A stretch of DNA of 64,000 nt from Marinomonas sp. SBI8L. GTDB lineage: Bacteria; Pseudomonadota; Gammaproteobacteria; Pseudomonadales; Marinomonadaceae. Numbering within the stretch: position 1 is the stretch's first letter; each line of letters opens with the position of its first letter. The DNA is taken from positions 1 through 64,000 of the forward strand of contig NZ_JSEO01000005.1 in NCBI RefSeq assembly GCF_001624705.1, written 5' to 3'. The translations under genes were made by a program, and so were the position numbers. Of this stretch, positions 5,133 to 62,007 are shown piece by piece. The notes below the pieces were generated by a model. That model searched no databases. It saw nothing but the letters and a program-made list of their open reading frames with translations, and was not told the DNA's origin.

Positions 5133-5196
5133 GGAAAACAGGAAAACAGGAAAACAGGAAAACAGGAAAACAGGAAAACAGGAAAACAGGAAAACA
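5133..5196. repeat. Eight tandem copies of an 8-bp unit (GGAAAACA)
   Basis: Eight exact head-to-tail copies of GGAAAACA, with part of a further unit on each side, lie between dusC and the tRNA cluster. No gene can be supported here: the open frame across it on the minus strand encodes only repeated FPVFLFSC-type residues. Such repeats are prone to slippage, so copy number may vary between strains. The rest of 4964-5242 shows nothing else. Confidence 0.95.
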
Positions 5197-5242
5197 GTTT
5201 TGTTGAGCTTGAGAAAAAGAAAATACTTTTAAAAAGAAAGAA

Positions 5243-5771: not shown

Positions 5772-5960
5772 TTAATCTTCAACTTCTTGTTCATCTTGCT
5801 CTTTTTGGATGCGAAGGTAGATTTCTTCACGGTGAACAGACACATCTTTTGGGGCGTTAATGCCGATGCGTACCTGATTACCTTTAACACCAAGCACAGT
5901 TACAGAGACTTCATCACCAACCATTAGAGTTTCACCAACACGGCGCGTAAGTATAAGCAT
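5772..5960 (-). CDS. csrA: Carbon storage regulator CsrA/RsmA
   Basis: RNA-binding dimer that represses or activates translation by binding GGA motifs in mRNA leaders. It has 62 residues starting [12 protein letters not shown] and includes the conserved VHREEIY segment with the RNA-contacting arginine. The Glu/Asp-rich tail is variable in the family. A strong AAAGGAG ribosome site precedes the ATG. Two antagonist-type RNAs with many GGA motifs are encoded at 18769-19582 in the same window. Confidence 0.97.
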
Positions 5961-5985: not shown

Positions 5986-6122
5986 TGAAGCGATTTTGAG
6001 GAAATCACCTCGTTTCTTTGTAAGAAATGACTTACAAAGCGAATTGTAGCGTCTAGATGAAAAATACGCCAATATTTTCACCTAGACTTTTTGCTTATAC
6101 TTAATTTCGCCTCTGATACCGA

Positions 6123-15631: not shown

Positions 15632-18256
15632 ATGAGTCAAGCGGCAAAAGATAACCACACCCCTATGATGCGTCAATATTTTGGGCTCAAATCACAACAC
15701 CCAAATGAATTACTCTTTTATCGTATGGGTGATTTTTATGAAATCTTTTATGACGACGCTAAAAAAGCCGCTCATCTGTTAGATATTACGCTGACATCAA
15801 GAGGCCACTCTGGTGGGCAACCTATCCCTATGGCAGGTATCCCTTACCACGCTGCAGAGAACTATATTGCTCGATTAGTTCGCATGGGAGAATCCGTTGT
15901 TGTCTGCGAACAAGTCGGAGACCCTGCCACCAGCAAAGGGCCTGTTGAACGCCAAGTTGCTCGCATAGTAACTCCAGGTACTTTAAGTGACGAAGCATTC
16001 CTTGAAGAAAGAAAAGAAAACCTACTTGTTTCCATCGCTTATTTATCTCAAAAGCAAGGCGACATTTACGGCTTTTCTTACTTAGACATGGCCAGTGGAC
16101 GCTTCTCTGTTTTTGAAGTTGAAGGAGTAGATGCCTTTGACAGTGAACTACAACGTTTAGCACCAACAGAAATATTAGTATCCGAAGACTTCCCTAATCG
16201 AAATCTTATCACTTTAGAAAAAGGGGTGCGCGAATTAGGCCCTTGGCACTTTGACTATGAATCTTGCTATCGCCAATTAATTCAACAGTTCGATACTAAA
16301 GACCTAACAGGGTTTGGTTGTGAAGAACTCGGTGCCGCTATCGCTGCTGCCGGTGCGCTACTGCAATACGCAAAAGACACACAACGCTCTGCTCTGCCTC
16401 ATATTCAAGCCATCACACTTGAACACAAGGACGAAAGCGTACAAATAGATGGTGCGACTCGACGCAACCTTGAAATAGATTTAAACCTTTCAGGTAGCAC
16501 TAGCAACACACTAACATCCGTACTGGATCGCTGCTCTTCTCCTATGGGCAGCCGACTCTTAAAGCGTTGGTTACATCAGCCTAGCCGCAACTTGAATATT
16601 ATTAATGCCAGACAAGATGCAGTGCAAAGTTTATTAAATCAATACACTTATGATTTGATCAAACCTGAGCTAAAAGAGGCGGGTGATATTGAGCGTATCC
16701 TTGCTCGTGTTGCACTTGGTTCAGCAAGACCAAGAGACCTTTTAAGGTTACGTTTTGCTCTTGAAGCGATCCCTAAAATCAAACAGTTAATCTCACCGAT
16801 TGAAGATGTGAGGCTAAATGAGCTCAACCAACAGCTTGCACCGCTTCCAGAATTGACCCAAGAGCTTGCGGTGGCCTTAGTTGAGAACCCGCCTTCTGTT
16901 GTCCGTGATGGTGGTATTTTTGCCAAAGGTTATGATGGCGAACTAGATGAATTACAAGCACTGTCAACGAACGCAACTGACTACCTTGCAGAACTTGAGC
17001 AAAGAGAAAAAGACCGCACAGGTATCAACTCACTCAAAGTCGGCTTCAATCGTGTCCATGGTTACTATATTGAAATCAGCCGTCTACATTCAGATCAAGC
17101 ACCTGTTGATTATGTACGTCGCCAGACATTAAAAAATGCTGAACGCTTTATCACACCTGAGCTTAAGACCTTTGAAGACAAAGCACTTAGCGCTAAATCC
17201 AAAGCATTAGCACGAGAGAAAATGCTTTATGAGAAGCTACTCAATACAATTAACCTTGAGCTAATTAAATTACAAACAAGCAGTAATGCATTATCTGAAT
17301 TAGATGTACTGGCTAACTTTGCAGAACGAGCAGAGCGCCATAGATATGTTCGCCCAGTGCTGGCTGACAAACCCGGTATCGAAATCATTGAAGGACGACA
17401 TCCAGTCGTTGAGTCAGTCATTACCGAGCCTTTCATTCCAAACGACTTGGTCATGCACCCTAAGCGTTCATTATTAATGATTACAGGTCCAAACATGGGT
17501 GGTAAATCCACCTATATGAGACAGATTGCACTTATCACTTTGCTTGCCCACACGGGTTGCTTTGTCCCTGCAGAAGCGGCGAACCTTTCTTTAGTTGACC
17601 GTATCTTTACTCGTATGGGCTCCTCTGATGACTTAGCCGGTGGCCGCTCGACCTTCATGGTAGAAATGACGGAAACAGCTAACATACTCAACAATGCGAC
17701 ACCGAAAAGCCTTGTCCTCATGGATGAAGTTGGTCGAGGCACAAGCACCTTCGATGGTTTATCTTTAGCTTGGTCAGCGGTTGATCATCTAGCTAATCAG
17801 GTGAAGTGTAATGTGCTATTTGCGACTCACTACTTCGAATTGACTCTTCTTGCGGACGAGCTTAAAAATGCAGCCAATGTCCACCTGACAGCGACTGAGT
17901 ACGAAGATTCTATTGTCTTCCTGCATAAGGTACATGACGGTGCAGCAAACCAGAGCTATGGACTGCAAGTGGCACAGCTAGCCGGCGTACCAAGAGGTGT
18001 CATTCAAGCCGCGAAAGACAAACTAGCTGAGCTGGAAGCCTCCAGTCAGGATACAACAAATTCAACTAAAACCAGTATTCAAACGCCAAAAGCACATTAC
18101 ACTCAAGCGGCACAAGAACCAGCACCAATGCAGGCAGATTTGTTTGGTTCATCCCTAGATCAAGAGGTAAAAGATAAGCTAACAAATATTGATCTAGATG
18201 AGACAACACCCAAGCAAGCACTAGATGCGCTATACGAACTAAAAGAACTCATTTAA
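15632..18256 (+). CDS. mutS: DNA mismatch repair protein MutS
   Basis: Recognises mismatches and starts methyl-directed repair with MutL. The 874 residues are full length. The N-terminal mismatch-binding domain has [15 protein letters not shown], whose Phe-X-Glu lies slightly downstream of the start (GDFYE). The ATPase has Walker [10 protein letters not shown] near 619-626, Walker [17 protein letters not shown] and the signature [16 protein letters not shown]. The C-terminal beta-clamp/tetramer region follows a low-complexity Ser/Thr/Gln linker. It diverges from pncC and is followed by fdxA. Confidence 0.97.
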
Positions 18257-18398: not shown

Positions 18399-18722
18399 AT
18401 GGCTTTCGTCGTAACTGATAACTGTATCCGTTGTAAATACACCGACTGTGTAGAGGTTTGTCCAGTAGATTGTTTTTATGAAGGCCCAAACTTTCTTGCC
18501 ATCAACCCTGACGAATGTATTGACTGCGCCCTATGTGAACCAGAATGCCCAGCATCCGCTATTTTCTCAGAAGATGAGCTACCAGAAGATCAAGAGCACT
18601 TTGTCGAACTAAACGCAGATCTTGCTAACGTTTGGCCTAACATCACAGAAAAGAAAGATGCGCTAGAAGATGCTGCAACCTGGGATGGCGTTGAAGATAA
18701 GCTAGAACATTTAGAGAAGTAA
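18399..18722 (+). CDS. fdxA: Seven-iron ferredoxin FdxA
   Basis: Small electron carrier with one [3Fe-4S] and one [4Fe-4S] cluster. It has 107 residues; ligands lie in [18 protein letters not shown] (N-terminal) and [12 protein letters not shown] (about 40-51). The acidic C-terminal extension matches the Azotobacter/Pseudomonas type. A GAAGGAGAT ribosome site precedes the ATG. It follows mutS by 142 bases and is closed by its own terminator, next to the CsrB-like RNAs. Confidence 0.96.
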
Positions 18723-18760: not shown

Positions 18761-18768
18761 TCTAGGCA

Positions 18769-19032
18769 AAAAAAAGGCAGCCTATGCTGCCCTATTTTTC
18801 ACTCACATCCTGTTAAGCGACTCATCCAATGAGCTGAAATTCCTTTTCGTCATCATCCGTGACTATTAATCTTTCCTAGATCCTAACCGACACTCTTTGT
18901 CGATTAGTTCAAATCCTTTGACAGATTCCGTTCAACTGATTACTTCCTGTAATCTTTCTCCCATCATCCTCGATACATCCTGTACCTTGCAGTCCTTGCT
19001 TCCGTCTCATTCCATGAGTTTCCGTTTGGATG
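18769..19032 (-). ncRNA. CsrB/RsmZ-family CsrA-sequestering RNA, copy 2
   Basis: About 264 nt, transcribed leftwards. The minus strand carries 16 GGA triplets, many in hairpin loops: CTCAT-GGA-ATGAG, GATTAC-AGGAA-GTAATC, TACAGGATGTATC, CTCAT-TGG-ATGAG. It ends in GGCAGC-ATAG-GCTGCC followed by a T-run (terminator, 18769-18791). The promoter is -35 TTGAAT (19060-19065), 16-bp spacer, -10 TAAATT (19038-19043). The adjacency to fdxA mirrors rsmZ in Pseudomonas. The role inferred is titration of CsrA (csrA at 5772). The exact 5' end is estimated. Confidence 0.87.
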
Positions 19033-19180
19033 TCTTTAATTTACCATCAAATAGCTAAGATTCAAGTTCTTAATAACATCAAATAAATCAATATAAAACC
19101 ATATTTTTCAATAGCTTACATATCAATTACAGACATTTATCACCAACACCTACAAAACAACAAGATATTTCCTACATAGA

Positions 19181-19198
19181 TGTAGGCGATCTCTTACA
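19181..19198 (-). promoter_or_regulatory. GacA/UvrY-type upstream activating site, CsrB-like copy 2
   Basis: TGTAGG-CGATCT-CTTACA on the plus strand, that is TGTAAG-N6-CCTACA on the minus strand, matches the GacA box TGTAAGN6CTTACA with one change. Its centre is about 158 bases upstream of the predicted start of the RNA at 19032, close to the spacing known for rsmY/rsmZ. A further half-site (CCTACA, 19171) overlaps it. Confidence 0.8.
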
Positions 19199-19314
19199 AA
19201 TTATTCGATTTATTTTTAAATTTTCTGATTAACAAACCTTGCCCTGATTATTTTCTCGGTAAATTAAAGCAAAAGTCAGACATTGCTGATTGTCAGCAAG
19301 GAAAATTCAGGCAC

Positions 19315-19582
19315 AAAAAAGGGCAGCTTAATGCTGCCCTATTTTCACTCTTATTCCATTAAGTCACTCATTCAATGAGTGGAAATCCATTTGATTATCG
19401 TTCGTGATTTAAACCTATCCTGGCTTCTAATTTACATCGATGTAAAATTAGCTATCAAATCCGTTCGACCGATTCCCTTCGACTGATCACAAATCCCTGT
19501 GATTGACTCCTAAAAGCCCTAAATACATCCTGTATTCAGCAATCCTTACTTCCACTTCATTCCATGAGTTTCCCTTTGGGTG
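19315..19582 (-). ncRNA. CsrB/RsmZ-family CsrA-sequestering RNA, copy 1
   Basis: About 268 nt, transcribed leftwards, homologous to the RNA at 18769-19032. It has 12 GGA triplets, with loops such as AATACA-GGA-TGTATT, ATCACA-GGG-ATTTGTGAT and CACTCAT-TGA-ATGAGTG. Terminator: GGGCAGC-ATTAA-GCTGCCC then TTTTTT (19315-19339). Promoter: -35 TTGCAA (19610-19615), 16-bp spacer, -10 TACATT (19588-19593). The 5' end AAAGACACCC matches AAAGACATCC of the other copy. Several hairpins are kept while both sides of the stem changed. Confidence 0.87.
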
Positions 19583-19729
19583 TCTTTAATGTAACAGCAT
19601 TTTAGCAAGTTGCAATTTTTCAAAGAGATAGTAAAAATAAATATTTTCATTATTTTTCAATAAGTTAAAAATAAATTACAAGATAAAAACCTCAACACCT
19701 ACAAAACAAAAAGAAATGGCCTACAAATA

Positions 19730-19747
19730 TGTAGGCCATTTCTCACA
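19730..19747 (-). promoter_or_regulatory. GacA/UvrY-type upstream activating site, CsrB-like copy 1
   Basis: TGTAGG-CCATTT-CTCACA on the plus strand, two changes from TGTAAGN6CTTACA when read on the minus strand. Its centre is about 157 bases upstream of the predicted RNA start, the same distance as in the other copy. An overlapping CCTACA half-site precedes it (19720), and a shared ACACCTACAAAACAA block lies between site and promoter in both copies. Confidence 0.75.
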
Positions 19748-19777: not shown

Positions 19778-20995
19778 CTAAATCGTACTCAAGAAATCAT
19801 CAACCCAAGAAATGGCTTCTAAATAAGTTTCTTTCAGCGTTTCTTGTGGTACTGTCCCCGTTACTTGATGCCCTTTGGAATATTGCTCAATTTGGGTCAA
19901 GGTTAACCCTATCTTGCCACTTCTATTCACTATCGCACTCGCAAGCTCACCTGGCAAAGGTAAGGAGGCGAGAACATCAGGTAAGTCCATCCCCATGCAC
20001 ACATCTATCATGGATAGCATACCGGCAAGAAAATATTTATCTTGATTTGCGTATCCCATTTTCACTGCAAACAACTCAGCGTGCTTAGCTCGAATTAAAA
20101 CCTGTTGCAGCAATGCATGCCTATCACCAACCATTTCAGACATAAGTAACAGGCTAGTTAATGCTTTTAATTGTTCAGCACCCACCAGCACAATCGCAAG
20201 CTTAACACTGTCTACTGAGGCGATGAGCCCTGTAACGGGGGAGTTTAAATACTTTAAAAGCTTGTGAACTAGACCAACATCTTGGCTCACGATACGATCT
20301 AGCTCGTCCACTGAAAGCTCATTACTTTTAAGTAACTCAGCCATCAGTTGTAACAAGGTCATACTATTCACTTTGACCGCTTTACGCTCTATGGTTTGTG
20401 GTTTCTCAAAAAAGTATCCTTGAAAGAAGTCCACATCTAACATGCGACAGAAATTAAACTCGTCCCAAGTCTCTACCTTGCAGGCAATCACTTTTATATC
20501 GAAATTTCTAAAGGCTTCTAGTTCAGTAATAAATGCTTCCCGCCCTAGTGCTTGTAGGTCTAGCTTCACAAAACTTGCAAGCTCTATAAATGGCGTCAAT
20601 TTGGCTTCAAAGCGTAAATCATCTAACGCTATGTCATAACCTGAATTTTTCCACTTTCTTAAGGAAGCAAGTAAAACCGCATCAAAGTTAGAGTTATCTA
20701 ATACTTCAATCACAACTTGTTCACGGTCTAATGGTACGCCACTTGGGTTTAACAAATAGGTTCTAGGGAAGTTTACAAAGGCCTTGCCCGAACCCACCAA
20801 ATTAGACATACCAATTTCAAGTAAGGCCGTTGAGACCACTTGTGCGGTTGCACTGACATCATCAAAAATTTCAGCGTCCGTTGCTGTACCGCTACCACGA
20901 TACAAAAGCTCGTAACCATAAATAGATTGCTTCGCGTCTAGAATAGGCTGACGGGCAAGCGTAACAAGAGTGTAAATATCGAACCTATTTTCCAT
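19778..20995 (-). CDS. EAL-HDOD signalling protein (YuxH/CdgJ type)
   Basis: Regulatory protein with a degenerate N-terminal EAL domain (about residues 10-205) and a C-terminal HDOD domain (about 210-400). The EAL motif reads YELLYRG, the usual DDFGTGYSS is reduced to LDDLRFEAK, and QGYFFEKP is kept, so phosphodiesterase activity is doubtful. Similar proteins (Vibrio CdgJ) affect motility. It lies next to the CsrB-like RNAs, where Pseudomonas has rpoS near rsmZ; no rpoS is present here. Target unknown. Confidence 0.9.
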
Positions 20996-61751: not shown

Positions 61752-61775
61752 TTGAAATAAGACGTTAAGGCTTGA

Positions 61776-61889
61776 TCACTTAACTTCCTTTTTATATTTT
61801 TTATATCCGACATAACCAAAACCAGCAAAAAATGCCACCATTAGTCCAACAATAATCAAACCTGAAACAACAACAGAGTCTAAAAACAT
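61776..61889 (-). CDS. ccoM: cbb3-type cytochrome oxidase small subunit CcoM
   Basis: A 37-residue single-helix peptide (MFLDSVVVSGLIIVG..., then ...FFAGFGYVGYKKYKKEVK) too short for long-ORF calling. It resembles CcoM of Pseudomonas stutzeri, which stabilises the cbb3 oxidase: the same length, one membrane helix, and a GLMVAFFAGFG core with a Lys-rich tail. AAGGAGAG lies 8 bases before the ATG. Other cco genes are not in the window, as is usual for ccoM. Two ANR/FNR-type sites lie upstream. Confidence 0.85.
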   Translation of the reverse strand: MFLDSVVVSGLIIVGLMVAFFAGFGYVGYKKYKKEVK

Positions 61890-61916
61890 AACTGCTCTCC
61901 TTAATAATTAAGAGCA

Positions 61917-62007
61917 ATTATGTGCCTATCCTCTAAACAGTTAATGACATAAATCAATTGTTTTTTTGACCAAAGAGGCATCCGAGCGCTTTCTTGATTT
62001 AAATCAG
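61917..62007 (-). promoter_or_regulatory. ANR/FNR-type sites and promoter of ccoM
   Basis: Site 1: minus strand TTGAT-TTAT-GTCAT (61944-61957). Site 2: TTGAT-TTAA-ATCAG on the plus strand (61994-62007), one change from TTGATN4ATCAA. A -10 CATAAT at 61917-61922 puts the start near 61910, so site 1 is centred near -41, the class II activation position. Low-oxygen control fits a cbb3 oxidase peptide. Confidence 0.7.

Follow-up and report, generated by a model that had tools for sequence, protein, structure and literature searches.

A tandem pair of GGA-rich RNAs beside fdxA in Marinomonas, probably CsrB/RsmZ-type CsrA decoys

A CsrB RNA has been described in Marinomonas mediterranea MMB-1 (G010), where it is placed at 755,847-756,302 (PMC8523701); we located fdxA at 756,305-756,625 of this 4,684,316-bp genome, so that the two genes abut. 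M. mediterranea CsrB and CsrC are highly expressed and strongly reduced in mutants of PpoS and PpoR, which form a BarA/UvrY-type pair, while csrA1 carries a GacA-like box upstream and its mRNA increases in the same mutants (PMC8523701). The accessible portions of that paper name one sRNA at fdxA and one elsewhere, with no mention of a tandem pair. The csrC sequence (L081; compare L192 of G021) is long, with 32 GGA triplets over the published interval and a terminator-like hairpin in the middle that lacks a T run, and one might speculate that it represents two fused decoys. The rsmZ gene of Pseudomonas also adjoins fdxA (PMC4353343, PMC9788540), and a ferredoxin-linked decoy in Alcanivorax is in print. 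Neighboring copies are reported for Aliivibrio salmonicida, whose adjacent csrB2 and csrB3 were ascribed to duplication (PMC6262261, in which Aeromonas is written once), and the same paper describes csrB1 of V. tasmaniensis as having become independent of VarS/VarA. Azotobacter vinelandii contains many GacA-dependent copies in one genome, RsmZ1-7 (PMC4824345). A review of sibling sRNAs places the Csr/Rsm siblings in the class 'Distal', and PrrH is known to arise from tandem prrF1-prrF2. Our literature search on tandem csrB/rsmZ, with mostly open-access coverage and as such weak evidence of absence, found nothing closer than the Aliivibrio pair.

The 64,000-nt stretch of Marinomonas sp. SBI8L analyzed here (the window) contains two homologous minus-strand units of around 550 bp each, with a spacing of 546-550 bp by alignment. 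The interval from an EAL/HDOD gene to fdxA contains both, and in each of them a GGA-rich RNA is preceded by a GacA box and a promoter and ends in an intrinsic terminator (Table 1). We name the RNA far from fdxA A and the RNA adjoining fdxA B for easy description. An earlier note on this DNA had proposed two homologous minus-strand RNAs, each around 265 nt long and with a terminator of its own, at a position equivalent to that of Pseudomonas rsmZ and with csrA in the same window; all of these points are borne out by the alignment, the inferred lengths, and the gene order. As expected for an fdxA-adjacent RsmZ or CsrB, the RNAs lie beside fdxA, after mutS, and convergent with fdxA. No open reading frame of at least 60 aa was found within A or B in the list of reading frames. 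On the minus strand, a 15-pair hairpin followed by a T run at 19711-19744 overlaps the GacA box of A and may terminate the EAL/HDOD gene.

Table 1 Positions of the predicted features within the window.
Feature	Position	Strand	Details
RNA A (copy far from fdxA)	19315..19581	-	about 267 nt with 12 GGA; start placed by the -10 element
RNA B (copy adjoining fdxA)	18767..19031	-	about 265 nt with 16 GGA; start placed by the -10 element
Intrinsic terminator of A	19320..19340	-	8-pair stem with T run
Intrinsic terminator of B	18774..18793	-	terminator prediction
Promoter of A	19588..19615	-	TTGCAA, 16 nt, TACATT; genus profile
Promoter of B	19038..19065	-	TTGAAT, 16 nt, TAAATT; genus profile
Predicted GacA box of A	19730..19747	-	TGTGAGN6CCTACA, 2 mismatches; centre 123 bp before -35
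Predicted GacA box of B	19181..19198	-	TGTAAGN6CCTACA, 1 mismatch; centre 124 bp before -35
Second half-site TGTAGG of A	19720..19725	-	22 bp past box start; by eye
Second half-site TGTAGG of B	19171..19176	-	22 bp past box start; by eye
fdxA, 7Fe ferredoxin type	18399..18722	+	convergent with both RNAs
EAL/HDOD protein gene	19778..20995	-	upstream of A
mutS-like ORF	15632-18256		other side of fdxA from the RNAs
csrA, presumed target protein	5772..5960	-	sole copy found in genome
Predicted GacA box before csrA	6019..6036	-	perfect TGTAAGN6CTTACA; starts 76 bp before csrA start codon

The two RNAs share several features with the described systems and differ from each of them. Like A and B, M. 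mediterranea CsrB lies beside fdxA, is rich in GGA, and ends in a terminator, and it is under the GacA-type control that is predicted for A and B, as far as the accessible text and sequence go; unlike them, it is a single copy with the second sRNA elsewhere, and it has diverged so far that our promoter model (R1, see below) matches its csrC instead. Pseudomonas RsmZ, in the portions available, resembles the pair in its fdxA neighborhood, its GacA upstream activating sequence, and its GGA hairpins, whereas it is single at fdxA and the Rfam RsmZ model scores A well under its gathering threshold. The Aliivibrio salmonicida csrB2/csrB3 genes are likewise neighboring duplicates, but they belong to another family and another place, and the accessible text describes no phasing of GacA sites and no array survey. 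Azotobacter vinelandii RsmZ1-7, by what is available of that report, shares the presence of several copies per genome, GacA-dependent there and predicted to be so here.

Recounting agrees with the earlier note on the number of GGA triplets. The 16 triplets of B are equaled by only 1 of 1000 dinucleotide shuffles, while the 12 of A are equaled by 71 of 1000 and are not clearly above chance. In local hairpin loops, 10 GGA were found for B (0/1000 shuffles) and 7 for A (5/1000 shuffles), so that the proposed placement of GGA in loops is above chance in both RNAs. The case for A rests on these loop triplets, because the GGA number alone does not carry it. The hairpin CTCAT-GGA-ATGAG that had been put forward as an example is perfect in B, and its last base differs in A. 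No other minus-strand stretch in the window is as dense in GGA as A and B, which have 12 and 16 per 280 nt where the mean is 2.35 (sd 1.78). The plus-strand maximum of 14 GGA, at 5133-5197, comes from a simple tandem repeat of GGAAAACA-like units directly downstream of the csrA-tRNA stretch. Both RNAs are predicted to fold more stably than every one of 200 shuffles, with z-scores of -5.58 (A) and -4.53 (B). RNAalifold on four rows (A and B of two species) gave 66 pairs, 10 of which are changed on both sides, with a small covariation term of -0.88.

The covariance search that had been asked for beforehand gave best matches below the gathering scores. The best Rfam match for A is RF00166 (PrrB_RsmZ) with 31.6 bits against a gathering score of 44 (E 3.8e-5 for the stretch searched), and that for B is RF00018 (CsrB) with 28.3 bits against 71 (E 1.3e-5 for the stretch searched). 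No Rfam entry covers A or B at the gathering thresholds, neither RNA belongs to RF00166 or RF00018 at the curated cut-off, and A and B are absent from the matches listed for a whole-genome search with RF00018. Two features of the class are present in both RNAs, namely many GGA with several in hairpin loops, and an intrinsic terminator without a coding frame. The assignment to the CsrB/RsmZ type is supported, also by the published M. mediterranea CsrB, with scores below gathering for both RNAs; we regard A and B as new members of the class by function that stand outside both Rfam families at curated cut-offs.

The control regions of the two copies are built alike. The sigma70-like promoters proposed earlier escaped a simple sigma70 scan, which reported 3 sites in the region against 4.5 expected; they are seen as TTG-N19-TANATT, identically placed in A and B and conserved across the genus. 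In Marinomonas, conservation covers the promoter and the first bases of the transcript (TANATT ... ATCCAAA). The 47 genus loci yielded 56 copies, 45 of which were used for this comparison; of the 11 copies left out, 4 had no promoter by the profile and 7 had one and were mostly close to the rows retained. Allowing up to 2 mismatches, a GacA box is matched in 35 of the 45 copies, compared with 1.2% of shuffled regions, and in 41 of the 45 the best match is centred 120-125 bp ahead of the -35 element. By a plain tally, the second half-site is found 22 bp past the box start in 36/45 copies and 23 bp in 5. A and B both obey the spacing rule, which is also kept by the extra copies of the six other two- or three-copy loci for which a promoter was found. 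A third half-site was seen by eye in both A and B, 22 bp beyond the second.

The fdxA gene is present in all 49 Marinomonas genomes, and a GGA-rich stretch lies beside it in 47/47 loci with enough sequence. Copies were counted by GGA peaks and terminators in the 45 genomes whose locus is contig-internal. Two copies were found in G000, G066 (MED121), G005, G014, G016, G003, and G060, three in G030, and one in the remaining 37. Some of these 37 loci show a second, lower GGA peak; the one inspected (L049) falls inside the EAL/HDOD gene. In G030 (L070, L187), three consecutive GGA-rich RNAs lie beside fdxA with a terminator after each, and the outermost is strongly diverged. Contigs break at the locus in four further genomes, with two copies on another contig beside an apparent insertion in G061, one copy on each of two contig ends in G012, one copy beside a transposase-like frame in G019, and one copy at a contig end in G059. 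Between copies or at contig breaks, G005 (L065), G012 (L191), G059 (L190), G061 (L188), and G019 (L189) carry transposase-like sequence or short simple repeats, for example CACTTTT units. A search for a mobile origin found no match among 72,556 plasmid records.

Model R1, a sequence-only model of the promoter and 5' end built from 38 rows, matches A at 19504-19615 and B at 18956-19065. It has a match in 49/49 genus genomes, and at least two matches below 1e-6 in 10 of the 49. In M. mediterranea it matches csrC rather than the diverged RNA on the fdxA side, and the sole match in G021 is likewise away from fdxA. A pair unique to this strain is ruled out by the other multi-copy genomes of the genus. 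The tandem arrangement, which the earlier note had called unusual, is uncommon without being unique, given these 10 genomes and the Aliivibrio salmonicida genes in print. Beyond the genus, from a search that spanned 84 genera with Marinomonas included, we collected the fdxA flank from 60 genera of the order, sought terminators in 15 of the 60, and read 4, so that the following cases do not amount to a count. In G107 (L130) and G056 (L178), which belong to other families of the order, two GGA clusters lie beside fdxA, each followed by a terminator. In G107, a GacA-like box with 2 and 3 mismatches, respectively, precedes each cluster (by eye; the script pattern did not match).

A maximum-likelihood tree was calculated for 52 RNAs from 43 of the 49 genomes (2 without sequence, 4 left out). 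A and B group with the RNAs of Marinomonas sp. MED121 (100/99), the closest named relative, whose EAL/HDOD protein is 91% identical. Because A groups with A (97/86) and B with B (98/92) across the two species, the pair is, by this tree, older than the split from MED121. The arrays of G003, G014, G016, G030, and G060, together with G059, form another clade (99/99), and G005 and G012 group weakly (79/78). A claim of at least three separate expansions was abandoned: the 3 changes forced by well-supported branches had relied on L040 and L066 being labeled single, yet both come from broken contigs. When the two are relabeled as tandem, the well-supported branches force only 1 change, and the best tree needs 4. 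Because of this drop we put the weight on the two well-supported clades that bear paralogues; judged from the tree, two separate duplications are well supported and a third is likely. The same grouping could also result from gene conversion within the arrays.

Comparison with MED121 suggests that the two copies are under unequal selection. Between the two species, identity at the fourfold sites of the EAL/HDOD gene is just 33% (47/141), against 88% for RNA B (231/262) and 72% for RNA A (187/260). Identity reaches 98% (B) and 81% (A) in GGA columns, 91% and 79% in paired columns, and 80% and 58% in other unpaired columns. B holds 16 GGA in both species, A holds 12 and 10, and three GGA sites of B are absent from A in both. 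From these alignments, both copies are constrained, B more than A, and B would by motif count be the better sponge.

The probable partners of the RNAs are encoded in the same genome. The single csrA copy lies inside the window, and a GacA/UvrY regulator gene is found directly upstream of uvrC (L125 3391-4041; 286.5 bits, cut-off 280). All 49 genomes were searched for csrA, with no match in the draft of MED121, and 30 loci were fetched from the 48 genomes with a match. In 30/30 of these loci, a box with no more than 2 mismatches starts 68-82 bp before the start codon, compared with 1.7% of shuffles, and the predicted box extends the csrA observation in M. mediterranea to the genus. A DNA search with the pair and model R1 gave A and B as the sole significant matches in this genome; a diverged third RNA could escape both. 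Five weaker R1 matches (L115-L119) have 1-3 GGA in 280 nt. For a csrC counterpart, just a 26-nt match to the terminator end of csrC was found, and the sequence there (L083) shows no GGA-rich RNA. Two matches to RF00018 were rejected as decoys. One (L121, 13.5 bits) is mostly coding. The other (L120, 19 bits) lies between ORFs and resembles a GGA-rich mRNA leader; at 1501-1790 of L120 (C67:118425-118712), around 190 nt between two ORFs carry 10 GGA per 290 nt and hairpins such as GGTC-AGGA-GACC. The next frame looks phage-tail-type by eye, and the stretch is possibly the leader of an mRNA strongly bound by CsrA.

CsrA sponging is very probably the best explanation of both RNAs, because the M. 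mediterranea counterpart on the fdxA side is a transcribed RNA that depends on PpoS/PpoR and has been published under the name CsrB. Phosphorylated GacA/UvrY would bind the box around 158 bp before each start and switch both RNAs on; the GGA triplets in hairpin loops of each RNA would then bind several CsrA dimers and free the mRNAs that CsrA represses. GacA probably also represses csrA through its upstream box, and one signal would then lead to less CsrA and more decoys. The whole unit, from activator site to terminator, appears to have been duplicated in tandem before the split from MED121. Most likely, the effect of the pair is a larger amount of decoy, B being the stronger and A the weaker sponge. 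The full reading, in which A and B are GacA-switched CsrB/RsmZ-type decoys, tandem duplicates of a whole unit, and together increase decoy dose, is one that we hold with high confidence. Between the two roles once suggested for the pair, dose control is favored over separate inputs because one activator layout, with the same box type and spacing, is common to both copies.

Several other explanations were weighed against this reading. B may be the working sponge and A a transcribed leftover that contributes little and is being lost, an unlikely but not far-fetched case given the faster evolution of A, its fewer GGA, and the three sites missing from both A copies. The identity of A between the species nevertheless stays far over that of fourfold sites, in GGA, paired, and other unpaired columns alike, which disfavors a decaying pseudogene, and its box, promoter, and terminator are retained in both species. 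The same inequality in evolution and GGA content could mean that the functions differ, with B as the CsrA sponge and A answering another signal or serving other partners by mRNA pairing; V. tasmaniensis csrB1 offers a precedent for lost VarS/VarA control in the text available. Since box type, half-sites, spacing, and promoter are alike in A and B, we consider such a division rather improbable.

Read-through at the terminator of A could yield an additional long double RNA with a role of its own, as the shared orientation of A and B and, in the portion of the literature available, the case of PrrH might suggest. It seems very improbable against the 8-pair stem with its T run and the separate, conserved promoter of B. 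That the two are no decoys at all, and instead noncoding DNA rich in GGA or a short gene that is translated, is scarcely credible: the GGA count of A is not significant by itself and the Rfam gathering scores are not reached, but the hairpin excess, the genus-wide promoter, box, and terminator, the published expressed counterpart, and the lack of a sizeable ORF in either RNA all speak against it.

The observations on decoys made here for the first time are the copy-number survey of the genus, the separate duplications, the phase-locked GacA boxes, and the old, unequal pair. The genus provides a natural copy-number series for one decoy gene at one place, with one to three copies and more than one duplication. 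The series bears on why bacteria keep several CsrA decoys, and dose, redundancy, and specialization could be separated among relatives. We tentatively propose, as an idea with the odds somewhat against it, that the fdxA-rsmZ locus serves as an amplification spot, at which the number of decoy units (one, two, or three, each with a phase-locked activator site) has repeatedly changed to set the ratio of decoy to CsrA, together with repression of csrA itself from a conserved GacA site, and that older pairs split into a strong B and a weak A. Elsewhere in the window, the minus strand at 61755-61926 gives an Rfam match to PhrS with 45.5 bits, above the gathering score of 37.
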